Part shown: positions 1 through 11,576 of the stretch, one piece after another
Layout: the number at the start of each line of letters is the position of its first letter
How positions within the stretch are numbered: position 1 is the first letter of the stretch
Assembly: GCA_004017535.1 (NCBI GenBank)
Contig: SAJS01000006.1
Span: 124,001 to 188,000, forward strand
Source: Mesorhizobium sp.
GTDB taxonomy: Bacteria > Pseudomonadota > Alphaproteobacteria > Rhizobiales > Rhizobiaceae
Reading direction: 5' to 3'
Length of the DNA stretch: 64,000 nucleotides
Translations under genes and position numbers: made by a program
The notes under the pieces: generated by a model
Database searches by the model: none
What the model was told of the DNA's origin: nothing
The model's input: the letters and a program-made list of their open reading frames with translations, nothing else

Positions 1-1002
1 ACGCCGGGCATGGATGCGCATGGCAGCTACGTGTCCCTGTCGCGGCATCGCGATGGGATGGACCTGCATTACGCCAGCGACGATTTTGCTACGCGGGAAA
101 AGCTCGTCCGGACCCTGTCACGTGACCGCGCCAAGGACATGGCGTCAGATTACGACCAGATCGATCCCGCGCAACACTATGCCGAGCGGCGCGGAATCAC
201 CTTCCGCCAGCGTGTGGCCGAGATCATGCGCCGGATCGTTCCGGAGAAGCTCCGCGACAGGACCGAAGGGTTGATGGACGGGTTGCGCGCGCCCGCAGGC
301 GCCGAGTTCGGCCAAGACCGGTGGCGCAGCCCGGAAAGAGGAGATGGTGGGACTAGGCACGGCGATGCCGGCGTCGCACACGAAAGAGAAGCTGCTGCCA
401 GGGGAGCGCAGCGCGAAACGGGTGCGTCGCTGGACCCGGAAGCGGCGCTGCGCCGCGCTCGCACGAATGCGCTTGTGCGTCACGCTCGAGCGCTCCTTGC
501 TATGGCGAGTAGCGGAAATCCGGACGGGCAGGGGACTCCTGAGCAGATGCGCGAATTGAGAGAGGCGCGCGACGCTTTCGAGAAGGTTCGGCCTCATGGC
601 TGGCGCGACGCCGAAGCGGCCTATGTCAAGGATCCCAAGCTAGTTCGTGAAGCGGCCGCCGGCCGAGTCAATCGCATCGTACTCGCTCTCCAGCTTGAAA
701 CCGAAATCCGCACCGGACTGGACGCCGATCCGATCGGCCGCGCCGACCGTTTTGTGGAACGCTGGCAGAAGCTCCACCGGACCAGCCAGGATCAATACCA
801 GTCCGGCGACATGTCCGGTTACAAGTCAACGCGCTCGGCCATGTTCGACATGGCCAAGAGCCTCGAACGCGATCCGCAACTGGAATCGCTACTCGCCAAT
901 CATAAGAAGGCGCTTGGCATCGAAGTCGAGTCCGGCCGGCGCCTGGGTGTGGAACTCGCGTTCAGCCATGGCATCGGCAGGGGTCGCGGAATCGGTATCT
1001 GA
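1..1002 (+). CDS. traA: Ti-type conjugative relaxase TraA, C-terminal part (5' end outside window)
   Basis: The frame is open from base 1, so the gene starts upstream of the window and only the last 333 residues are visible. Near the left edge the residues YVSLSRHRD match motif VI of the RecD-like helicase domain found in MobA/TraA relaxases of rhizobial plasmids and ICEs. After that comes the long, charged, poorly conserved helical C-terminal tail of that family. TraA nicks oriT and unwinds the transferred strand in conjugation; the nicking domain is not in view. With the recombinase at 9477 it argues for an integrative conjugative or mobilizable element. Whether the upstream part is intact cannot be told. 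The ATG at base 10 is internal and not a true start. Confidence 0.8.
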   Translation, partial: TPGMDAHGSYVSLSRHRDGMDLHYASDDFATREKLVRTLSRDRAKDMASDYDQIDPAQHYAERRGITFRQRVAEIMRRIVPEKLRDRTEGLMDGLRAPAGAEFGQDRWRSPERGDGGTRHGDAGVAHEREAAARGAQRETGASLDPEAALRRARTNALVRHARALLAMASSGNPDGQGTPEQMRELREARDAFEKVRPHGWRDAEAAYVKDPKLVREAAAGRVNRIVLALQLETEIRTGLDADPIGRADRFVERWQKLHRTSQDQYQSGDMSGYKSTRSAMFDMAKSLERDPQLESLLANHKKALGIEVESGRRLGVELAFSHGIGRGRGIGI

Positions 1003-1130
1003 ACCCCTCCAATTTGCCGCCGTTCCTACGCCCAACATCGATGAGATGACAAATCGGATTGCGCACGAGCCTTGGGTGTCCTGTCTGGTTCCAGCAGGTG
1101 TCAAATGCTCTCGCAAAAGGCAAGGCTGCC

Positions 1131-1352
1131 ATGCCTGAACCGGATCGTATCATTCGCCTCAGGACCGTCCTCGCGCGGACCGGCTTGTCGCGCTCAACGA
1201 TGTACCGCAAAATCGCCGAAGGCACGTTCCCGGCTCAGATCAAGATCAGCGTTAACGGCGCTGGCTGGCGTGAATCCGACATCAATCAGTGGGTCACTGA
1301 TCCTGTCCGCTGGCATACCAGACCCGGACGAAAAAACAGCGCTGGTGGTTGA
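1131..1352 (+). CDS. AlpA-family helix-turn-helix regulator
   Basis: This is a 73-residue protein. It has the AlpA/Phage_AlpA layout: the segment RLRTVLARTGLSRSTMYRKI (residues 10-29) is a winged helix-turn-helix, followed by GTFP and a WRESDINQW recognition segment near residues 46-54. Such proteins act as excision or transcription regulators of prophages and integrative elements, typically switching on the integrase or excision genes. The longer frame starts at 1059, but the family begins with a short leader just before the RLxxV segment, so the ATG at 1131 is preferred. It lies between the relaxase and the large nuclease-like protein, which fits a role in controlling the element. Confidence 0.8.
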   Translation: MPEPDRIIRLRTVLARTGLSRSTMYRKIAEGTFPAQIKISVNGAGWRESDINQWVTDPVRWHTRPGRKNSAGG

Positions 1353-1383: not shown

Positions 1384-1548
1384 ATGAGCAAGTTCAAGAA
1401 TGGCCGGTTCCCGACCGTGTGGTTCTGGAGAGAAATCCGTGGCTCGTGCAGTCGGATGAGACCGGCTAGCCAAAAAACCTGGGAAGTATGCGGATCTCAA
1501 TTTGAGTTCGATGACATCATCCGCTCTTTCGGTGAGAATGAAGCATGA
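1384..1548 (+). CDS. 54-residue ORF coupled to the large nuclease-like gene
   Basis: This small ORF is not recognisable by family. It starts with ATG at 1384 and encodes 54 residues, including an aromatic, basic N-terminal stretch (VWFWREIRG). Its TGA (1546-1548) overlaps the ATG (1545-1547) of the 2125-residue gene in an ATGA junction, the usual sign of translational coupling. No strong Shine-Dalgarno sequence is seen before its own start, so it could also be only a leader that delivers ribosomes to the large gene. Conservation has not been tested. The call rests on the open frame and the ATGA overlap alone. Confidence 0.4.
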   Translation: MSKFKNGRFPTVWFWREIRGSCSRMRPASQKTWEVCGSQFEFDDIIRSFGENEA

Positions 1549-4500
1549 CCTCTCGAATACGCCGAGTCGCCGCACCACGCCATGAGGTAGATCCGCAATG
1601 GCTGGTTGCTGGACCTACGAAAGAAACTGTTAGTCCCCCGGTCAATACGCGGGGGGACATGCTTCCGTTCCTGGGACTCAGTTGGGAGGATTTTGAGAGA
1701 CTTTGTCGACGGCTCGCTGAAGCCAGCGGGGATGTCGAGCGCGCATGGGCCTATGGTACGCGCGGACAGAAGCAATATGGCATCGATCTTCTCGTCCGTC
1801 GCACCGATGATAGCTATGAGGTCTGGCAAACTAAGCGTTACAAGAAAGCTATCGCCGGCGATGTAGCAGCGGCACTTGAGATTTTTCTGAAGCACCCATG
1901 GGCCGAAAAAGCGAAGCGATTTGTGCTTGTCTTCGCCTGCGCACTGGAAGAGACGAAAGTTGTAGAGTCGATCGAGGACGCCGGAACTAACCTCTCATCA
2001 AAAGGCATCGGATTTGATCCGCTGGATGCCGTTCGTCTCACGCAACGGCTGATACCGCATCCTGAGATTGTGGATGATTTTTTTGGCCGCTCCTGGGTTG
2101 AAAAGGTCTGTCCTCGCGAAGCGCTGACGCGGTTGGCCGCGCGAATACCAGCAATCAGCAAGGATGCTTCGACGGCGGCATATTACTCTCCAGTCAACGG
2201 CGAGGACCACCGCTTTGCGGCGTTATTGTCCAAACAAGAACAGATACTTGACGGTCTGACACAGGCTCAGGCCAATCTCGCCACCAAAGACGATGTCGCG
2301 GCTGTGGCGCGGAGTCTGCAGGGACATGATCCTGAGCCCGCAGTGCGATTGCCAAGAACGTTCGCCGACCGGGAGTTGCAGGCGGAGTATTCCAAAGCAT
2401 TGCGGCGGCGCGGTTTTAGCCGCACCGATACACCACGAGAACTCGCAACCCTTGCCGTCCGAGCGATCGATGGCGACTTGGCGCTTGCCTCTCCGTTGTT
2501 ACGGGCAGAGGTATGTGATCGGGCGGCCCGAGCCAATGCCTTGCCCGAGACGCGGGCTGCCGCCGAGCGGTTTCGCAGCCAGGCGGCAACCCTCGATCCC
2601 ACGCGCGATCTTTTCGTCCTCGATGCCTATCTGAAGGAGGCCGCGGGCAACGCTGACGCGGCGTTGCTCGATCTGAAGACGCGCGACGATATCGAGGCTC
2701 GATCAGCTGTATTTTTTATCTTGGTCCGAGAACGGGGAACAAGTGCTGCCTTGGAATGGGCGCGGGCGGAGAACTTCAAGGCAGCCGATTTTACGCCGCC
2801 CAGCGCCTTGAATCTCGTGATTAAGACAATTGAAAATGGAGATTTTGATGAGGCTCTGACGTTTGTCCAAGAAATCCCCAGCTCGTATTTCGATGAAATC
2901 GCGGCGTTGTATCTCCTAAGAGCGCAACTTGTTCTCGCGTCGCTGCTCCCGCAAGATCGCAGAGCCGCCCTCTTTCAGGGCCTGCCGGTTAACCCACGCA
3001 TCTTGCAATTCGCCAGCGGATCGAACGCGGATAGCTCTCTCAAAGCAGCGTTGGCTGATGTGCAGATCCTCACAGCCAAGGTGCAAGAGCTTGGAATTGA
3101 TCATCTAGTCGACTTTCTGTCAGAGTTGGCGCTTTGGCTTCGCCTTGAAATTCCCGATCAGTGCGATGGCGCCCGAAGGCAATTGACGGACGAACTCGCC
3201 GAGCCGAAAACTATACTTCAGCGTGTTCGCCTTGCGCTCGCCTATGGTGTTCCGTTTGAGAAAGATGCGCTCCAACGCAGTCTCGTACGACGAAAGGAGC
3301 TCGGTGGATGGTCGCCGGACGAGCGTTTCGCTGCCTTCCTTCTGGCCGTTCACGATGGTGACGAGAACACGATCAACGCTTTCTTTGAGGCACATCGCGA
3401 AGACCTATTCGCACAGAATGATCTCTCGCTCGGCTATCTCGCCACGCTCGAAGTGGAAGCACTTGCGCGAAGCGGCCGGGTCGATGACGCAAGGCAACTA
3501 CTTAATACGCATCGCGGCAAGCATTTAACAGACGACCAGGCCAAGGATGCCGAAGAGGCGATCGTTGCAATTGCAAATCAAGACGAGGTAGAGTGGCACC
3601 GGCAACGTTATGAGCAATCCAAAAACCTCCAAGAGCTCCAACTGCTGGTCGGGGGCTTGCGCGCTCGATGCGACACGAAACTGCTTGCTGAATACTCGCC
3701 TAGATTGGTCCGGGAGACCAGAACGCGCGATGATTTCGACGTAGCGATCAAGTCTCTTTATGGAGAAAAGCGCGACGTAGAACTCATTGAACTATGCAAC
3801 GAACTACCCGACCAGACGAGACTTGATCCCGAATACGAAGCGATAAAGGCATGGTCGTTGTATCGTATTGGTCGGGTTGTCGAAGCGCGCGCGATCGCGC
3901 GCAAGCTCTTTTCATCGCGAGGTGAGGCCAGTGATCGTGAGCTGGTCATCAATACGTCAGTAGAAACAGGCGACTGGGGATACCTACAGGGCCTTGTAGC
4001 GCGCGAGATGGACCGACTGGATAACCTTTCGCCAAAAGACTGCATTCGGATGGCCAGGCTCTGCCTTGAGATAGCCAGCCCGTACGTGAATCAGTTTCGC
4101 GATGCCGCGATCACAAAGGCACCCAACGATCCACACGTCTTTCTTTCAGCGTACGTGCTCGCAACCGAGCGTGGTGAAGAGGATCAGGAGCCGCGAGCTC
4201 ACGAATGGCTTCAAAAGGCGATCGAACTTTCCGGGGCCGACGGCCCCGTCCAAAGTATGTCGTTCCGCGGTGTGATCGAACAGGCGTCCGGCTGGAGAGA
4301 GCGAACTAGTAGGTTTGAAAAGGCGCTTCGCGAAGCGGAAATCCCCGTTTTCATTATCGCGCGCACTGTCAATCGACACTTGCTTGATTTGACCCTTGGC
4401 CAAAGCCACCGGAACCTCAACGTACAGGAGGGACGAGTAAGCTATCCGGTATTTGCTTTTTCAGGTGCAAGGACCATCGGCGAAGTTGTCCGTTCATCAA

Positions 4501-7500
4501 CGGTGGCGCTCGATGTCACAGCCCTGATAACCTTGGAGTATCTCGGCCTGCTCGAGCCGGCGTTGGCATACTTCAAGCAGGTAATCATCTCACCGCGCAC
4601 CCTCGGGTTTCTTTTTGCGGAACGGCAGTTCATTCGCGTTCAGCAGCCTTCGAAAGTTGCCAAAGCACTGCGTATTCAATCCCTGATCGCGAGTGGAAGG
4701 CTGAAGACCGTTCCACGTTCCGTCGGACATGCCACAGCGGCAGGCAATGAAATGGGCGGCGACTTGTTCACGCTGATCGAAACGGCTTCAGCTTCAGGTG
4801 GCTTGGTAGTGAGAACCGCTCCTGTCTCGAAGCTCGGTTCTTATCTCGAAGAAGTGGTCGACATGGACGCCTTCAAGTCGGTCCTCACCGATACGCACCG
4901 TGTCATGTCATTCCTGTCATCCAAGATCGATTCCGCGCGAAGAAATGCGGCGGAACCTTATCTTAGACAGGTGGACCAAGGCTGGCCAGAAGCGCAGCCT
5001 ATCGAAACCACGTCGACTCTCTACCTCGACGACCTCTCCGTCGCGTACCTCGATCATGTTGGCGTTCTGGATAGTCTAACGAGCGCTGTTACCAGTGTGT
5101 ACGTGCATGAGGATGTCGCCGAACAGGCTCAGGCCACTCTGCGTCATGCCGAAGCTGCCAACCGCTTGCTTACGGCCATTGACGAAATTCGCCGCAAAAT
5201 ATCGGCGGAAGTTGAAAGTGGTCGGATCGCCTTCTCCGCCAGACACGTATCGGAACGAGACGAGGGAGATGACGAGCACGAAGACCCGACCGTTGCGGCG
5301 CCCACGCTCGATCTTCTCTCTGACCTTGCTGACATTGACGTCGTGGTCGCTGACGATAGATGTCTGAACAAAATGCCAAATTGGTCCGACGGGGCGGGCC
5401 GAACGGTGCCATGTGCGACTACGCTGGATGTGCTCGCGTCGCTGCGTCGGTCCGGCCGACTAAGTGAAGATGATTATTGGTTGGCACGTCATCGGCTGCG
5501 TGCCGGCGGGTTCTACGCGGTACCGCTAGAGGCCGACGAGCTGCTGTATTGGCTAGGATTTGCGTCAAGTAAGGACGGACGGCTGGAAGAGACGCCCGAG
5601 CTCAGGGCAATCCGTGAAAGTATCGCTCTGCCGCAAATCCACGCGACTTTCCTCCCGCCGGAGGATTTGTGGTTGGCAGGTATACGGCTCGCGATTTACA
5701 GGGCGGTACGTCAGACGTGGAGTGCCGCGAACAGCGCAAAGGTAGCCGCAACTCGTGCCGATTGGTTGATGTCAATTTTGCCCGACCCGATGACTTGGTG
5801 CCTAAACCCCGATAATCAACCCCTTTGGTCAACTGCGCGGCAGCAGGCGGGTATGCAGACCGCGATGTTTCTGGTTTTCACTGAAGGTAGGAAAGGACGG
5901 CGGGGGGAGTATTTTTCTTGGGCCGAGGAGCGATTAGTCGACCCCATTCAAAAGTATCGGCCGGAAATTTGGGATGCGACTATCGAGTTCCTGAAATCGT
6001 ACATTGCGCGGCTCTGGATGATGGATGGCCAAGCGGATGTTGAGATTAGTCGCGAGGCGCTGACCGAACTACTGCTCAATCCGCTTCCGTTGTCTGTGCG
6101 GATGCCATTGCTCCTCGACGAGGAGTTCCGGGCCAAACTTGGTCTCAAGCCGCGCTTTTCCTACCCCTTAGGCAAGCAGCTTTCTGTTGAGACTGGCAGT
6201 CTTCATGATGCGCTTCGGGCAGCAATCCGGGGCCGTGCCAGTGCGATGATAACGCTAAGTGATGGACAGCGCGTGCGGGGTGGAGTCAGCCGCCTTCCCG
6301 ATGGGAAGGCAGGTTTGGTCGTGAAAGGCGAGCGCTTTTCTTTCAGCAATGCGGATCTTCTGAGTGGTGAGCGAGAGGCCCGGATCGCGAGTTTGCAACG
6401 TATTTTCTCAGCTCAACCGCTTTCAGAAAAGGAGGAGCGACACTGGCACAAGATCGCTGAAGATCGCGCCTTGGACGACAGTGAGTATGACGAACTGATG
6501 ACTACATTAGGCTATACACCTGAAGCGTTCGCAGCCGAGCTTCAGAAGCCGCAGTCGCTTAGCCGTGAAACGATGTTGCCAGATGTTCCTGCCTATTTTG
6601 ACCGACTCGTCGCACCGCTGGGCGAAAACAAGGACATAGAAACGTTCATACGAGGCGATCTCACAAGCGCTCGCCGATCGCTTCTTGAACGCAACCCTGC
6701 GGTAGCTGTCCGACGGATTGCTTTCACGGCATTGTGGCAACCGCTAATTCCGTTCGACCAGCTAGAGGGGCTTGCCGTCGCCGATCTATCCCCCTTGCTG
6801 GACGCGGAAGATCCTTTCACTCTTCTCTTCGGATTTGAGATGTGTCGCGCACTGCTTCACAAAGATAGTGCCTTTGTCGATCTCGGCAGCGCGTTCCTCA
6901 GAAAGTTGTTCGGTGACGCGGAAGCTTCAGAGCATCGTAATGAGATGTTTTCTGCATGCGCCATTGTGGCGACCATTGAAATCCGTCGCGCGGCGAAAGC
7001 AGCTTCCGCGCCGGTCTTCTGGACCAGGCTTGCAGCTCTGGCACACGCCGGTGTGTTAGCCAACGCTCTCGGTAGAATGCCTGACACGGTGGGCTTCTTG
7101 GGCTGGGTGACCCGCAATTTTTACCCGCACTATGTGTGGAGTTGCATTGTTGATCGCCCCGAGACTCCGCGGTGGTGCCCTGATTGGATCAGCCCAGATC
7201 ATATATTTGCGGAATTGGTCGGGCGCGCTCGTGGAGCATTCCATATGCTCGCGGAACCTAGCCGACCGGGCGCATGGGTGGAACTGATTGATGCAGCCAC
7301 TGCGCGCCTCGCCGATAACAAAGGCATCCTTATGGCGATGTTCCCCGGGCCATTTGATGATTTCTTACAAATGAATATCATTTCCCCGCTGCGAGAAGTG
7401 TTTGCTGAGGTCGAGATGAGCCTCGACCGAGCGAGGCGCCTTGCCGATGTACCGGGCTTCGCAGCGCTGACCTATGCCTCGATCCCCTCGGAGCGAGCGA

Positions 7501-7922
7501 TCAACAACGTGACGCGGATCTTGACCGTTGGAGTGAACGAGCCCATCGCCGATATCGAGTTGGAAGTTCGCTACTTGAGACTTGCAGCACACTTCGCGCT
7601 TGCCGGCCACTCTGAGGTTGTGGCGCAAGCCGTCATTGACCGTTGTTTTGTCATAGCGCACGGCGCCGATGTCTCCACGCAGATCACCGACCTTTTCGCC
7701 GTGATAATGGAAGCCAGCGCCGTCTATCGCGCTAGCCACAGATATCATGAGGTCATCGGCGAGTACGCGGCCCGTATCTGCTTCCTGGTGAATAGCAATG
7801 AGGCACTTGCCAGTCTTGGTGACATCTTCGACGTCCTAGTGCAACGCGATGAAAGGCTCACACAGGTGCTCGGCAAGGCCCGCGCGATTAATCTAACTAT
7901 CCGAAATCGAACAGTTCACTGA
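1545..7922 (+). CDS. Giant Mrr-like nuclease / helical-repeat / PIN-like protein, candidate anti-phage defence protein
   Basis: This 2125-residue protein has no P-loop that I could find. Residues 40-100 carry a PD-(D/E)xK signature of the Mrr-like type: WEDFERLC with E51, GTRGQKQYGID ending in D81, and WQTK (Q95, K97). Known proteins with this N-terminal block couple it to sensors in phage defence. Residues of about 270-960 are helical and TPR-like. Residues of about 985-1300 contain two PIN-like stretches: VALDVTALITLEYLGLL (D990, with E1069 and D1073 later) and LYLDDLSVAYLDHVGVLD (D1162/D1163, with ADDR at D1270/D1271). Near 1555-1605 there is a small beta-rich segment, and the rest is helical. 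The start at 1545 is supported by the ATGA overlap with the preceding ORF. An alternative ATG at 1659 (residue 39) has a GGGGGA sequence just before it. The GC content looks lower than in chromosomal neighbours. Confidence 0.7.
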   Translation: MTSRIRRVAAPRHEVDPQWLVAGPTKETVSPPVNTRGDMLPFLGLSWEDFERLCRRLAEASGDVERAWAYGTRGQKQYGIDLLVRRTDDSYEVWQTKRYKKAIAGDVAAALEIFLKHPWAEKAKRFVLVFACALEETKVVESIEDAGTNLSSKGIGFDPLDAVRLTQRLIPHPEIVDDFFGRSWVEKVCPREALTRLAARIPAISKDASTAAYYSPVNGEDHRFAALLSKQEQILDGLTQAQANLATKDDVAAVARSLQGHDPEPAVRLPRTFADRELQAEYSKALRRRGFSRTDTPRELATLAVRAIDGDLALASPLLRAEVCDRAARANALPETRAAAERFRSQAATLDPTRDLFVLDAYLKEAAGNADAALLDLKTRDDIEARSAVFFILVRERGTSAALEWARAENFKAADFTPPSALNLVIKTIENGDFDEALTFVQEIPSSYFDEIAALYLLRAQLVLASLLPQDRRAALFQGLPVNPRILQFASGSNADSSLKAALADVQILTAKVQELGIDHLVDFLSELALWLRLEIPDQCDGARRQLTDELAEPKTILQRVRLALAYGVPFEKDALQRSLVRRKELGGWSPDERFAAFLLAVHDGDENTINAFFEAHREDLFAQNDLSLGYLATLEVEALARSGRVDDARQLLNTHRGKHLTDDQAKDAEEAIVAIANQDEVEWHRQRYEQSKNLQELQLLVGGLRARCDTKLLAEYSPRLVRETRTRDDFDVAIKSLYGEKRDVELIELCNELPDQTRLDPEYEAIKAWSLYRIGRVVEARAIARKLFSSRGEASDRELVINTSVETGDWGYLQGLVAREMDRLDNLSPKDCIRMARLCLEIASPYVNQFRDAAITKAPNDPHVFLSAYVLATERGEEDQEPRAHEWLQKAIELSGADGPVQSMSFRGVIEQASGWRERTSRFEKALREAEIPVFIIARTVNRHLLDLTLGQSHRNLNVQEGRVSYPVFAFSGARTIGEVVRSSTVALDVTALITLEYLGLLEPALAYFKQVIISPRTLGFLFAERQFIRVQQPSKVAKALRIQSLIASGRLKTVPRSVGHATAAGNEMGGDLFTLIETASASGGLVVRTAPVSKLGSYLEEVVDMDAFKSVLTDTHRVMSFLSSKIDSARRNAAEPYLRQVDQGWPEAQPIETTSTLYLDDLSVAYLDHVGVLDSLTSAVTSVYVHEDVAEQAQATLRHAEAANRLLTAIDEIRRKISAEVESGRIAFSARHVSERDEGDDEHEDPTVAAPTLDLLSDLADIDVVVADDRCLNKMPNWSDGAGRTVPCATTLDVLASLRRSGRLSEDDYWLARHRLRAGGFYAVPLEADELLYWLGFASSKDGRLEETPELRAIRESIALPQIHATFLPPEDLWLAGIRLAIYRAVRQTWSAANSAKVAATRADWLMSILPDPMTWCLNPDNQPLWSTARQQAGMQTAMFLVFTEGRKGRRGEYFSWAEERLVDPIQKYRPEIWDATIEFLKSYIARLWMMDGQADVEISREALTELLLNPLPLSVRMPLLLDEEFRAKLGLKPRFSYPLGKQLSVETGSLHDALRAAIRGRASAMITLSDGQRVRGGVSRLPDGKAGLVVKGERFSFSNADLLSGEREARIASLQRIFSAQPLSEKEERHWHKIAEDRALDDSEYDELMTTLGYTPEAFAAELQKPQSLSRETMLPDVPAYFDRLVAPLGENKDIETFIRGDLTSARRSLLERNPAVAVRRIAFTALWQPLIPFDQLEGLAVADLSPLLDAEDPFTLLFGFEMCRALLHKDSAFVDLGSAFLRKLFGDAEASEHRNEMFSACAIVATIEIRRAAKAASAPVFWTRLAALAHAGVLANALGRMPDTVGFLGWVTRNFYPHYVWSCIVDRPETPRWCPDWISPDHIFAELVGRARGAFHMLAEPSRPGAWVELIDAATARLADNKGILMAMFPGPFDDFLQMNIISPLREVFAEVEMSLDRARRLADVPGFAALTYASIPSERAINNVTRILTVGVNEPIADIELEVRYLRLAAHFALAGHSEVVAQAVIDRCFVIAHGADVSTQITDLFAVIMEASAVYRASHRYHEVIGEYAARICFLVNSNEALASLGDIFDVLVQRDERLTQVLGKARAINLTIRNRTVH

Positions 7923-8424: not shown

Positions 8425-8511
8425 ATTGTGGAGCCCGACTGCTCGGCTGCTGACGGTGTTGAGACCACCTTCAGCAGCCTAACCACGCCCAAGCTTACCG
8501 GAGCTCGGATC

Positions 8512-9078
8512 ATGGCTGATTCCGACAATAGCACGACTTTGTCTTCCGTCACGCTAGGGGGAAGCGGCGAGGGTGCTGTAAAAGACCCTGCGCTTGCGCT
8601 GCTACGAGACTGGGTGAGGGCGCAGCATGTCTCACAGGTTCTCTGCCGACTTCAACAACGCCTGGAAACGCGCGTTCTCGCCGCGGCCTGTCCGACAGCG
8701 ATGGATGCCAAGGTTGGTTACTCGATCGCCTGCCAGGCAGAAGTCGAAGCTGCGACAGCGGCTTTGAAAATTCAGGATAGACTTCCGCGCACGCACGCGC
8801 ACTCACTTCGCGGCGTTGTTGCCAAGCTTGAGATAATCGTCGGCGCAGATCGCGACATCGAAGACCCGACAGACTTCCCTTGGCCACATATCGAATCGAT
8901 CCTGCGTGACTTGAAAGAAATCGTCGGGGACGTCCCGCTCGAGCGGCCTGACCGATCCATCGTTCAGGCAGATTGTAAGCGATACCAAGCAATCGCCGCC
9001 GATCTGGTCGGTCTCGGAAAGCAGGCCGCTGATCACCCCCTTGGACAGGAACCGGAGGTTGGTGCCGATACAGAGTAG
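8512..9078 (+). CDS. Hypothetical protein, 188 residues, on mobile element
   Basis: I do not recognise this protein. The open frame begins at 8242 but its first part is antisense to the XRE gene. The ATG at 8512, following GGAGCTCGG, gives a plausible 188-residue product. It has a Ser/Thr/Gly-rich N-terminus, then mostly helical sequence, no signal peptide and no membrane segment. A proline-tryptophan segment (DFPWPHIESIL) sits in the second half. It may share the divergent promoter region and putative operator with the XRE gene. The gene is followed by two further genes in the same direction, the last being the recombinase, so it may be part of the element's maintenance set. Confidence 0.6.
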   Translation: MADSDNSTTLSSVTLGGSGEGAVKDPALALLRDWVRAQHVSQVLCRLQQRLETRVLAAACPTAMDAKVGYSIACQAEVEAATAALKIQDRLPRTHAHSLRGVVAKLEIIVGADRDIEDPTDFPWPHIESILRDLKEIVGDVPLERPDRSIVQADCKRYQAIAADLVGLGKQAADHPLGQEPEVGADTE

Positions 9079-9476: not shown

Positions 9477-11576
9477 ATGAATCAGCGAATTGCGAAGGTC
9501 GCAAGGCCCGCAGGCCTTGTAAAGGCGCTGCTATACGCGCGTGTCTCCTCGAAGGAACAGGAGAAGGAGGGATTCTCCATCCCGGCGCAATGCAAGCTGC
9601 TGCGCGACTACGCCCTGCAACAGCGATTCGACATCGTGCAGGAGTTTATCGACGTCGAGACGGCCAAGACCACCGGCCGGACCAATTTTACCGAAATGGT
9701 CAAATATCTGCGAAAGCATCCCGGCATTCGGAGCGTCCTGGTCGAGAAGACCGACCGGCTCTACCGCAATCTGAAGGACTGGGTGACTCTTGATGAGCTG
9801 GATGTCGAAATCCACCTTGCGAAGGAAGGTGTGACGCTGTCGCGAGACTCGCGCTCGTCCGAAAAGTTCATGCACGGCATCAAGGTCTTGATGGCCAAGA
9901 ATTATATCGACAACCTGTCGGAAGAAGCCCGCAAGGGGCAGATGGAGAAGGCGGAGCAGGGTATCTGGCCGACAAAGGCTCCACTGGGCTATGTCAACAC
10001 CACGGGGAAAGATGGCAGAAAGGTTATCGAGCCGCATCCTGAACTGGCTCCAGTCGTCACACAGCTGTTCGAGCGCTACGCAACCGGCCAGTATTCGCTC
10101 AAGGCCTTGGCTAAGGCAGCCCATGGCGACGGGCTGATTTATCCCAAGAGCGGCAATCCGGTTCCGGTCAGCACCGTGCATATGATCCTGCGCAACCGCC
10201 TCTACACGGGCCTGTTCCAGTGGAACGGCAAATTGCACCACGGCAGGCACGAACCTCTTGTATCAATCGAATTATGGGAGCGGGTCCAGGGCGTCCTGAC
10301 GGGCCGCAATGCCGTACCGACCCACCCGATAGGCAACGAGTTCGCCTTCACCGGCCTGATGACCTGCACCGAATGCGGCTGCGCCGTCGTAGCGGAGATC
10401 AAGAAGGGCAAATACGTCTATTATCATTGCACGGGTCATACCGACAAAGGCCGGGGCGGATACGCTGATTGCCGCCGCAAATATGTCCGCGAGGAAGTGC
10501 TCGATCAGGCATTCGCCAACCTGCTCGACCGGTTGCATTTCGACGAAGAGATACTGGAGTGGGTAAAGGCTGCCCTCCTGGCCAGCCATGCCGACGAGCG
10601 CCGGGAGCATGAACAGGCGATCCATCGATGCCAGGTCGAGTACAAGCGGCTCGAGGATCGGCTGCACGCTATGTACCTCGACAAACTCGACGGTCGCATC
10701 GATAACGCCTTTTACGACCGCATGTCGGCGCAGTGGCGAACCGAACAGACGCGGCTGCTTCGCGAGATAGAGCGCCATGGCAGCGCCGAAGAATCATACA
10801 TGGAGGACGGCATCCGGCTGTTGGAATTAGCGCGCAACGCCAGCCGACTGTTTGCGAAACAGCCTGCGCACGAGAAAAAGCGGCTCCTGAATCTCGTGCT
10901 GTCGAACTGCCAGTGGGACCAAGGCGAGGTTCACGCCGTCTTCAGGCAACCGTTTGATCTACTTGCGGAAACGGTCGCATCCCAAGCGGCTACCGGCGCG
11001 CAGCAGACAGAATTATCGAGAGGGAGTCCAGTTTGGCTGGGGCGCCAGGATTCGAACCTGGGAATGTCGGTACCAAAAACCGATGCCTTACCGCTTGGCG
11101 ACGCCCCAGCAGGCGAGGCATGCCCGCTTGCGCGCGGCCTTATAGGACGGTGCGGCGCAAAGCTCAATGCCGCAACATCAACTAAAAGCGGCTGCGATGC
11201 AGGTCGCCATTTGCTGGCGGTTGTCGCTGATCGCCAGCGGCGTGTCTCGGGCATCCCGACGCCGCGCACCTGCTTCGCTCGCCTGGCCGACATCGGAGCA
11301 ATCAGCTTCCGCGAAGCCGACGATGCTCTGTTGCTCACGCCTGCGCCACACGCGCGCGGCAATCCTCGAGAACCGCCGCAAGCGTCTCCTCGAAAGAATG
11401 CTCGGGCGCCCAGCCAAGCAGGGTCCGGGCGCGGGTCGCATCGCCGACGATGCATGGCAGGTCGCTTGGCCTCATCCGCAAGGGATCCTGCTCTACGACG
11501 ATCTTGGCGCGGCTTTGCGCCAGCAGCAGATCCAGAATGTCTGCCATCCGCCAGGAGAGGCCGGACGCAAGGTTGA
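9477..11576 (+). CDS. Large serine recombinase of the integrated element; frame runs through the tRNA
   Basis: The N-terminus ALLYARVSSKEQ is the resolvase/invertase catalytic domain with S24 as the expected nucleophile. It is followed by the recombinase domain (KAPLGYVN, residues of about 170-280) and a zinc ribbon (TCTECGC then HCTGH and ADCRRK, residues of about 298-335). A coiled-coil region precedes residue 450. These are the features of large serine integrases, which insert and excise elements. An AAGGAGG at 9462-9468 supports the ATG at 9477. About 519 residues precede the tRNA, close to the usual family length. The same frame then stays open antisense through the tRNA-Gln gene and into the 3' end of the minus-strand reductase, giving 699 residues in total. 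The last 180 residues are therefore junction-dependent and probably not native. Confidence 0.85.
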   Translation: MNQRIAKVARPAGLVKALLYARVSSKEQEKEGFSIPAQCKLLRDYALQQRFDIVQEFIDVETAKTTGRTNFTEMVKYLRKHPGIRSVLVEKTDRLYRNLKDWVTLDELDVEIHLAKEGVTLSRDSRSSEKFMHGIKVLMAKNYIDNLSEEARKGQMEKAEQGIWPTKAPLGYVNTTGKDGRKVIEPHPELAPVVTQLFERYATGQYSLKALAKAAHGDGLIYPKSGNPVPVSTVHMILRNRLYTGLFQWNGKLHHGRHEPLVSIELWERVQGVLTGRNAVPTHPIGNEFAFTGLMTCTECGCAVVAEIKKGKYVYYHCTGHTDKGRGGYADCRRKYVREEVLDQAFANLLDRLHFDEEILEWVKAALLASHADERREHEQAIHRCQVEYKRLEDRLHAMYLDKLDGRIDNAFYDRMSAQWRTEQTRLLREIERHGSAEESYMEDGIRLLELARNASRLFAKQPAHEKKRLLNLVLSNCQWDQGEVHAVFRQPFDLLAETVASQAATGAQQTELSRGSPVWLGRQDSNLGMSVPKTDALPLGDAPAGEACPLARGLIGRCGAKLNAATSTKSGCDAGRHLLAVVADRQRRVSGIPTPRTCFARLADIGAISFREADDALLLTPAPHARGNPREPPQASPRKNARAPSQAGSGRGSHRRRCMAGRLASSARDPALRRSWRGFAPAADPECLPSARRGRTQG
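11034..11062. other. Putative right attachment site (attR) in tRNA 3' end
   Basis: The recombinase gene lies immediately next to the 3' end of tRNA-Gln, the usual geometry for elements that insert into tRNA genes and restore the 3' part. The exact core cannot be defined, because the other end of the element, where a repeat of this stretch would be expected, is outside the window. Confidence 0.35.
11034..11108 (-). tRNA. tRNA-Gln (anticodon UUG)
   Basis: On the minus strand a 75-base cloverleaf is seen. The acceptor arm is TGGGGCG/CGCCCCA, the anticodon stem TCGGT/ACCGA encloses the loop TTTTGGT (anticodon TTG), the T-arm contains GGTTCGAATCC, and CCA is encoded at 11036-11034. The acceptor and anticodon stems pair perfectly. 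Its 3' end faces the recombinase gene, so it is the probable integration target of the element. The gene appears intact and functional after integration. Confidence 0.95.

Follow-up and report, generated by a model that had tools for sequence, protein, structure and literature searches.

The window, a 64,000-nucleotide stretch of a Mesorhizobium sp. contig (SAJS01000006.1, positions 124,001 to 188,000), carries at 1545-7922 on the forward strand an open reading frame which starts with ATG, runs without interruption for 2125 amino acids, as a first-pass annotation had read it, and whose DNA has one matching place in its own genome. Upstream lie the C-terminal part of a TraA-type relaxase (10-1002, forward strand; NCBIfam NF010464), the start of which is outside the window, and an AlpA-like regulator (1059-1352, forward strand; PF05930, 63.8 bits). 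The NF010464 match extends over the whole relaxase piece with 350.4 bits, the cut-off for the full-length protein being 1015, and on the contig the relaxase reading frame comprises 1015 amino acids. Downstream a large serine recombinase is encoded (9477-11576, forward strand; PF00239, PF07508 and PF13408), in agreement with the earlier placement of the gene between relaxase and integrase. A tRNA-Gln (TTG) gene is found on the reverse strand at 11034-11108, and a proposed attachment repeat at 11013-11042, overlapping its 3' end, is identical at 28 of 30 positions to contig positions 78441-78470 outside the window (E 1.4e-6). The two repeats are probably the attachment sites bounding a tRNA-Gln element of approximately 56.6 kb, which has a G+C content of 58.4%, its flanks having 60.8 and 64.4%. 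A tRNA gene is absent from the left copy, which is located (contig near 78380-78470) within a reading frame similar to the C-terminal end of the serine recombinase, probably the trace of an earlier related element at the same site. Judged by eye from the N-termini of reading frames of at least 180 amino acids, the other genes of the element look catabolic, and a type IV secretion gene was not seen among them.

Four Pfam families match the 2125-aa protein at E <= 1, each judged against the cut-off of its own model, and domain searches and structure models give the order Mrr, TPR, HTH, PIN, PIN, permuted GreAB-C-like domain and helical C-terminus, all on the forward strand. The Mrr/PD-(D/E)xK effector domain (aa 29-191; 1629-2117) is delimited by blastp to the relatives L026 and L027 over aa 29-191 and contains the Mrr_cat match (PF04471) at aa 45-129, with 24.1 bits against a cut-off of 21. 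The fixed core, which according to blastp against the relatives begins at approximately aa 180-300, opens with TPR-like helical repeats (aa ~270-900, approximate limits; 2352-4244); the helical-repeat middle of the first-pass annotation is TPR-like, though TPR_19 scores 22.4 bits at aa 422-462, below its cut-off of 25, and TPR models are above cut-off in the relative L035. The HTH that follows (HTH_upst_double_PIN, PF24407; aa 908-976; 4266-4472) reaches 49.3 bits with a cut-off of 27. PIN-TPR-GreABC (PF20698) matches two stretches, the best at aa 989-1029 with 31 bits against a cut-off of 27.8 and a weak second one from aa 1160 (12.8 bits, E 0.49); together with structure model and conservation they mark PIN-like unit 1 (aa ~986-1092; 4500-4820), with D990 and E1026, and PIN-like unit 2 (aa ~1157-1280; 5013-5384), with D1162, D1270, D1271 and R1272. 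A small beta-rich, permuted GreAB-C-like domain (aa ~1537-1602; 6153-6350), defined by alignment A5 and a structure model, and an all-helical C-terminal region (aa ~1603-2125; 6351-7919), seen in the structure model, complete the protein. The HTH and the permuted GreAB-C-like domain had both been missed by the first-pass annotation.

PADLOC and NCBIfam gave 0 families each at E <= 1 on the giant protein. A PDB sequence search with the whole protein found no match, and in searches with the N-terminus, alignment A4 and alignment A5 the best E values were 0.45, 0.11 and 0.028, none of them meaningful. The P-loop motif [AG]xxxxGK[ST] is absent from the protein, as had been noted before, and an NTPase family is absent among its Pfam matches at E <= 1; with neither present, the identity as an Avs/STAND sensor is ruled out.

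The conservation of the effector domain was assessed in alignment A6, the 11 rows of which comprise the window, six relatives sharing the core and four of the 18 plasmid proteins with a match to the N-terminus only. G74, Q77, G79, D81 and K97 are invariant (11/11), position 51 is E in eight rows and Q in three, and position 95 is Q in nine and S in two. From the PD-(D/E)xK signature proposed earlier (E51, D81, Q95/K97) the invariant D81 and K97, backed by the Mrr_cat match above cut-off, are retained, while E51 and Q95 are variable. Six plasmid proteins with a NACHT annotation carry homologous Mrr N-termini of 37-38% identity, which fits the earlier remark that this block is also attached to Avs-like sensors; from these Mrr-NACHT sensors the window protein differs by the lack of an NTPase or P-loop and by its core.

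Relatives were compared at 24 separate loci in addition to the window, six from plasmids, eight from genomes and ten from a contig scan. While 27 plasmid records were matched, the match covers the core in eight of them (two pairs look near-duplicate), and six of these eight are included among the 24 loci. The contig scan, by one 9-residue pattern, led from 68 stretches to 12 loci, of which L038 and L049, as repeats of L033 and L032, were left out; as a single pattern was used, the family is under-sampled. PF24407 is above cut-off in 11 of the 13 single-gene or first-gene proteins scanned and below it in L036 (23.6 bits, or 27.6 when searched with its neighbours) and in L037 (15.2 bits), the weakest core relative (E 8e-5). 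The model is rare, being found in 3/101, 3/385 and 4/398 genomes with the own genome counted each time. A phage collection searched with the 606-aa PIN region gave no match, and the 37 pattern matches of an IMG/VR scan included no relative.

According to the reading-frame lists, the 24 loci consist of 11 with one gene, 11 with two genes and two with more pieces, such that the protein is split over several reading frames in 13/24 relatives. In nine two-gene forms, similarity to the window ends at aa 1473-1504 in the first gene and resumes at aa 1497-1594 in the second, which places the split point behind the PIN region and ahead of the GreAB-C region. L031 and L048 are broken into extra frames and are perhaps decaying copies or assembly errors.

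The N-terminus is the variable part of the protein. The BLASTP core match starts at aa 179-303 in 12 of 20 relatives (at aa 221-270 in eight of them), at aa 361 in L041 and at aa 670 or later in seven more distant relatives. In a Pfam scan of the N-termini of 21 of the 24 relatives (L044, L046 and L048 were left out), domains above cut-off were present in nine and belonged to seven kinds, namely alpha/beta hydrolase or DUF676 (L024, L031, L041), caspase (L029), Mrr (L033), nucleoside phosphorylase (L035), bDLD3 (L036), metallophosphoesterase (L042) and SMEK (L047). No such domain was above cut-off in the other 12; among these, similarity to the window marks L026-L028 and L037 as Mrr-like, in L032 the resemblance is limited to 37 aa, and an alpha/beta hydrolase match in L045 stays below cut-off. 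L033, the nearest core relative, is 40.9% identical to the window over 1214 aa of the core (aa 270-1490; score 2429), while the two effector domains score 49, which shuffled sequences reach as well (200 shuffles; mean 30.7, maximum 62). The cyanobacterial L026, on the other hand, is 37.5% identical over 160 aa of the effector (score 205) and 27.0% over 830 aa of the core (score 442), and L027, L028 and L037 point in the same direction. These comparisons indicate that the histories of effector and core are discordant and that the N-terminus is swapped on a fixed core.

Two further observations concern N-termini. At L036 (561-7515) the bDLD3 core protein stands beside a nucleoside phosphorylase fused to bDLD3, by its domain composition apparently an adaptor arrangement of the kind described in the text of Kaur et al. 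(2021; eLife 70394, PMC8195603). The proteins of L030 (from 7601) and L043 (from 7220) have similar N-termini with no Pfam match above cut-off, possibly an unnamed effector.

Conservation of the PIN-like units was followed in alignments A4 (12 rows) and A1 (14 rows), with the window counted in both. D990 is D in ten and E in two rows of A4 and D in all 14 rows of A1, E1026 is kept in 12/12 and 11/14 rows, D1270 in 12/12 and 13/14, while D1271 and R1272 do not vary in either alignment. D1162 is present in all 12 A4 rows and in 6/14 A1 rows, where the column otherwise holds N in four cyanobacterial rows, S in two and a gap in two, amounting to a loss in six of the 12 ungapped rows; D1163 is found in 9/12 and 3/14 rows. 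PIN 1 lacks a third conserved acid. L035 and L036, with one PIN where others have two, retain D990 and D1271. That position 990 is acidic and D1271/R1272 are unchanged in all rows of A1 and A4 suggests catalysis or metal binding. The active-site positions of the first-pass annotation are upheld for D990 in PIN 1 and for D1270/D1271 in PIN 2, with D1162 less widely kept. E1069 (E in 6/12 A4 rows) and D1073 (D in 4/12) are ruled out as PIN acids by their poor conservation; with each Asp pair counted once, two of the five named positions are therefore not conserved, and E1026, which is conserved as the second acid in PIN 1, had not been listed.

The structure model of the PIN region, built from 12 sequences, has a mean pLDDT of 84.0 and displays two successive units, each with the order strand-helices-strand-helices-strand-helices-strand, which we take to be the order of the PIN fold. 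D990 and D1162 are located directly behind strand 1 of their respective units, and D1270/D1271 behind strand 4 of unit 2. The L035/L036 single PIN, a profile of two sequences, can be aligned in register with either unit by hhalign (E 3.6e-6 for PIN 1, E 1e-5 for PIN 2), so that the tandem pair looks like a duplication; the direct alignment of PIN 1 to PIN 2 reached only E 0.022 over 37 columns. The two PIN-like regions claimed at first thus reappear as two PF20698 stretches and two model units, while comparison with known folds did not confirm them: a PIN fold is absent among the best 50 of 220 Foldseek rows (best E 0.61), where the queries were whole multi-domain models in which small folds may be hidden, and hhalign against eight VapC-type PINs was not significant for PIN 1 (E 0.13), PIN 2 (0.8) or the single PIN (0.64). 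As neither comparison gave a significant match, the label PIN derives from Pfam and from the published prediction as worded in PMC8195603.

The model of the C-terminal part (mean pLDDT 85.8) consists of the beta-rich domain at aa ~1537-1602, with pLDDT 78-94 by blocks of ten, followed by helices only. In A5 the domain is aligned with those pieces of the relatives that match Permuted_GreAB-C (PF24388), although window aa 1498-1652 itself has no PF24388 match. Ten pieces were tested with this model; five are above cut-off (L039, L041, L042, L045, L047), two below (L040, L043) and three, the window, L038 and L049, without a match. Among whole proteins, L024 and L025 are above cut-off, L026, L028, L030, L035 and L036 below it, and no match is listed for L029, L032, L033, L034 and L037. 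Comparison of the domain with a two-sequence GreA profile gave E 0.2 in plain and 0.097 in doubled form, neither of them significant. The best 50 of 953 Foldseek rows for the C-terminal model, with none at E <= 0.001, are largely armadillo/HEAT-type or designed repeats.

These parts strongly suggest that the protein is a relative, fused into one gene, of the TPR-GreAB-C-PIN conflict system that Kaur et al. predicted (PMC8195603). As presented in the text of that paper, the constant, fast-evolving region combines TPR repeats with a GreA/B-C domain and a novel variety of the PIN domain, the N-terminus is EAD10 or one of 13 other effectors including an REase, and the genes mostly stand alone; the system is predicted to act on virus-hijacked RNA polymerase, the N-terminal effector serving as a suicidal back-up. 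The window protein shares with it a PIN domain of the PF20698 type and the variable N-terminal effector, here of the REase type, on a constant core. It differs from the description in that text, which places the PIN at the C-terminus, by a doubled PIN preceded by an HTH, by the permutation of the GreAB-C-like block and its position after the PINs, followed by ~520 aa of helices, and by the distribution of many relatives over two genes, features which, as the comparison is with the text only, may already be part of the published system. With the GreAB-C-like block and the helices behind the PINs, the protein is better regarded as a relative of double-PIN layout than as an archetypal member. The claim of an undescribed system had to be given up, since parts of the same kinds were predicted in 2021 and the Pfam models PF24407, PF24388 and PF20698 name exactly these parts; family, parts and REase-type effector are already in print, as far as the text of PMC8195603 extends, or in Pfam. 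In the open-licence literature, preprints excluded, we found neither text on a double-PIN or permuted GreAB-C form nor an experiment on this core. DS-3, a one-protein E. coli defence system described in the text of PMC13092281 as requiring its PIN active site, is likewise a single protein with a PIN, which in DS-3, as reported there, is split between N- and C-terminus.

The DNase-type N-terminus, the PIN-type regions and the location in mobile-element cargo favour the earlier proposal of a candidate defence or conflict protein, and the 2125-aa protein is likely a defence protein. While computation shows its domain composition, a constant core under exchanged N-termini, conserved residues of catalytic type and the mobile-element surroundings, we infer what the protein does, what triggers it, in which order the steps proceed and that it contacts RNA polymerase: it is likely an autoinhibited phage sensor with an RNA-cutting core, perhaps at RNA polymerase, in which Mrr serves as the terminal DNase. 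Its TPR-like and C-terminal helical regions would restrain it and recognize a sign of infection; the core of HTH, tandem PIN and permuted GreAB-C-like domain would engage nucleic acid, possibly a transcribing RNA polymerase, and cut RNA. Should infection continue, the Mrr domain would be released to cut the DNA of the invader or the cell's own, such that one domain would cut DNA and the other RNA, as the first-pass annotation had supposed. The RNA polymerase step would follow the prediction in the text of PMC8195603. That a fused TPR-GreAB-C-PIN relative, with an Mrr DNase in the variable slot, works as proposed we consider rather probable. A more specific reading, with the permuted GreAB-C domain in the RNA polymerase secondary channel, the tandem PINs as a pseudo-dimeric RNase with complementary acids (predicted as D990 and E1026 from PIN 1 and D1162, D1270 and D1271 from PIN 2) and Mrr unleashed if transcription persists, seems unlikely to us.

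The main rival takes the PIN/GreAB-C core as sensor or scaffold, in which degenerate PINs would bind RNA and leave it uncut while the N-terminal domain, as sole enzyme, does the killing in an Avs-like manner. The lack of part of the usual acids in PIN 1 and PIN 2 alike, the replacement of D1162 by N in the four cyanobacterial A1 rows and the diversity of the N-terminal domains, non-nucleases included, would fit such a core, whereas the acidic position 990 and the unchanged D1271/R1272 across A1 and A4 speak for catalysis or metal binding; we regard this alternative as doubtful, if still of some weight. The setting of the gene can also be read to mean that the protein guards the mobile element and not the cell, by excluding competing plasmids or elements or as an addiction-type module. 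The location between relaxase and integrase of the tRNA-Gln element and the core match in eight of 27 plasmid records (the two near-duplicate-looking pairs included) agree with this, yet the cargo position is silent on the target, one relative resides on a 5.7-Mb contig (G027) and a separate antitoxin gene was not recognized among the few neighbours scanned, which leaves the guarding of the element improbable.

A function outside of conflict, as an RNA quality-control factor coupled to transcription and equipped with a nuclease tail, would account for the combination of a GreAB-C-like domain with a PIN core, but is very improbable given the patchy presence of PF24407, the swapped N-termini and the mobile-element setting. 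With respect to the proposed defence function, the window provides a fused, uninterrupted family member with a DNase-type effector and, in D81, K97, D990, E1026, D1162, D1270 and D1271, candidate residues for testing the family, which would help to test the idea that bacteria sense viruses via the RNA polymerase secondary channel.

Among the neighbours of the window gene, PADLOC recognized AlpA only, and weakly (mad1, 16.9 bits). For nine neighbours of relatives, which were hand-picked and thus do not amount to an enrichment test, some PADLOC matches are strong and others weak, the strong ones being HmaB and HmaC by L034, a type I REase by L035, HEC-05 by L044 and a phospholipase effector by L045. 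Finally, window 8500-8552, in a small reading frame near the integrase end, is 81% identical over 53 columns (E 1.4e-6) to 16421-16470 of L030, the genome of which belongs to the same genus and carries a two-gene relative of the system.
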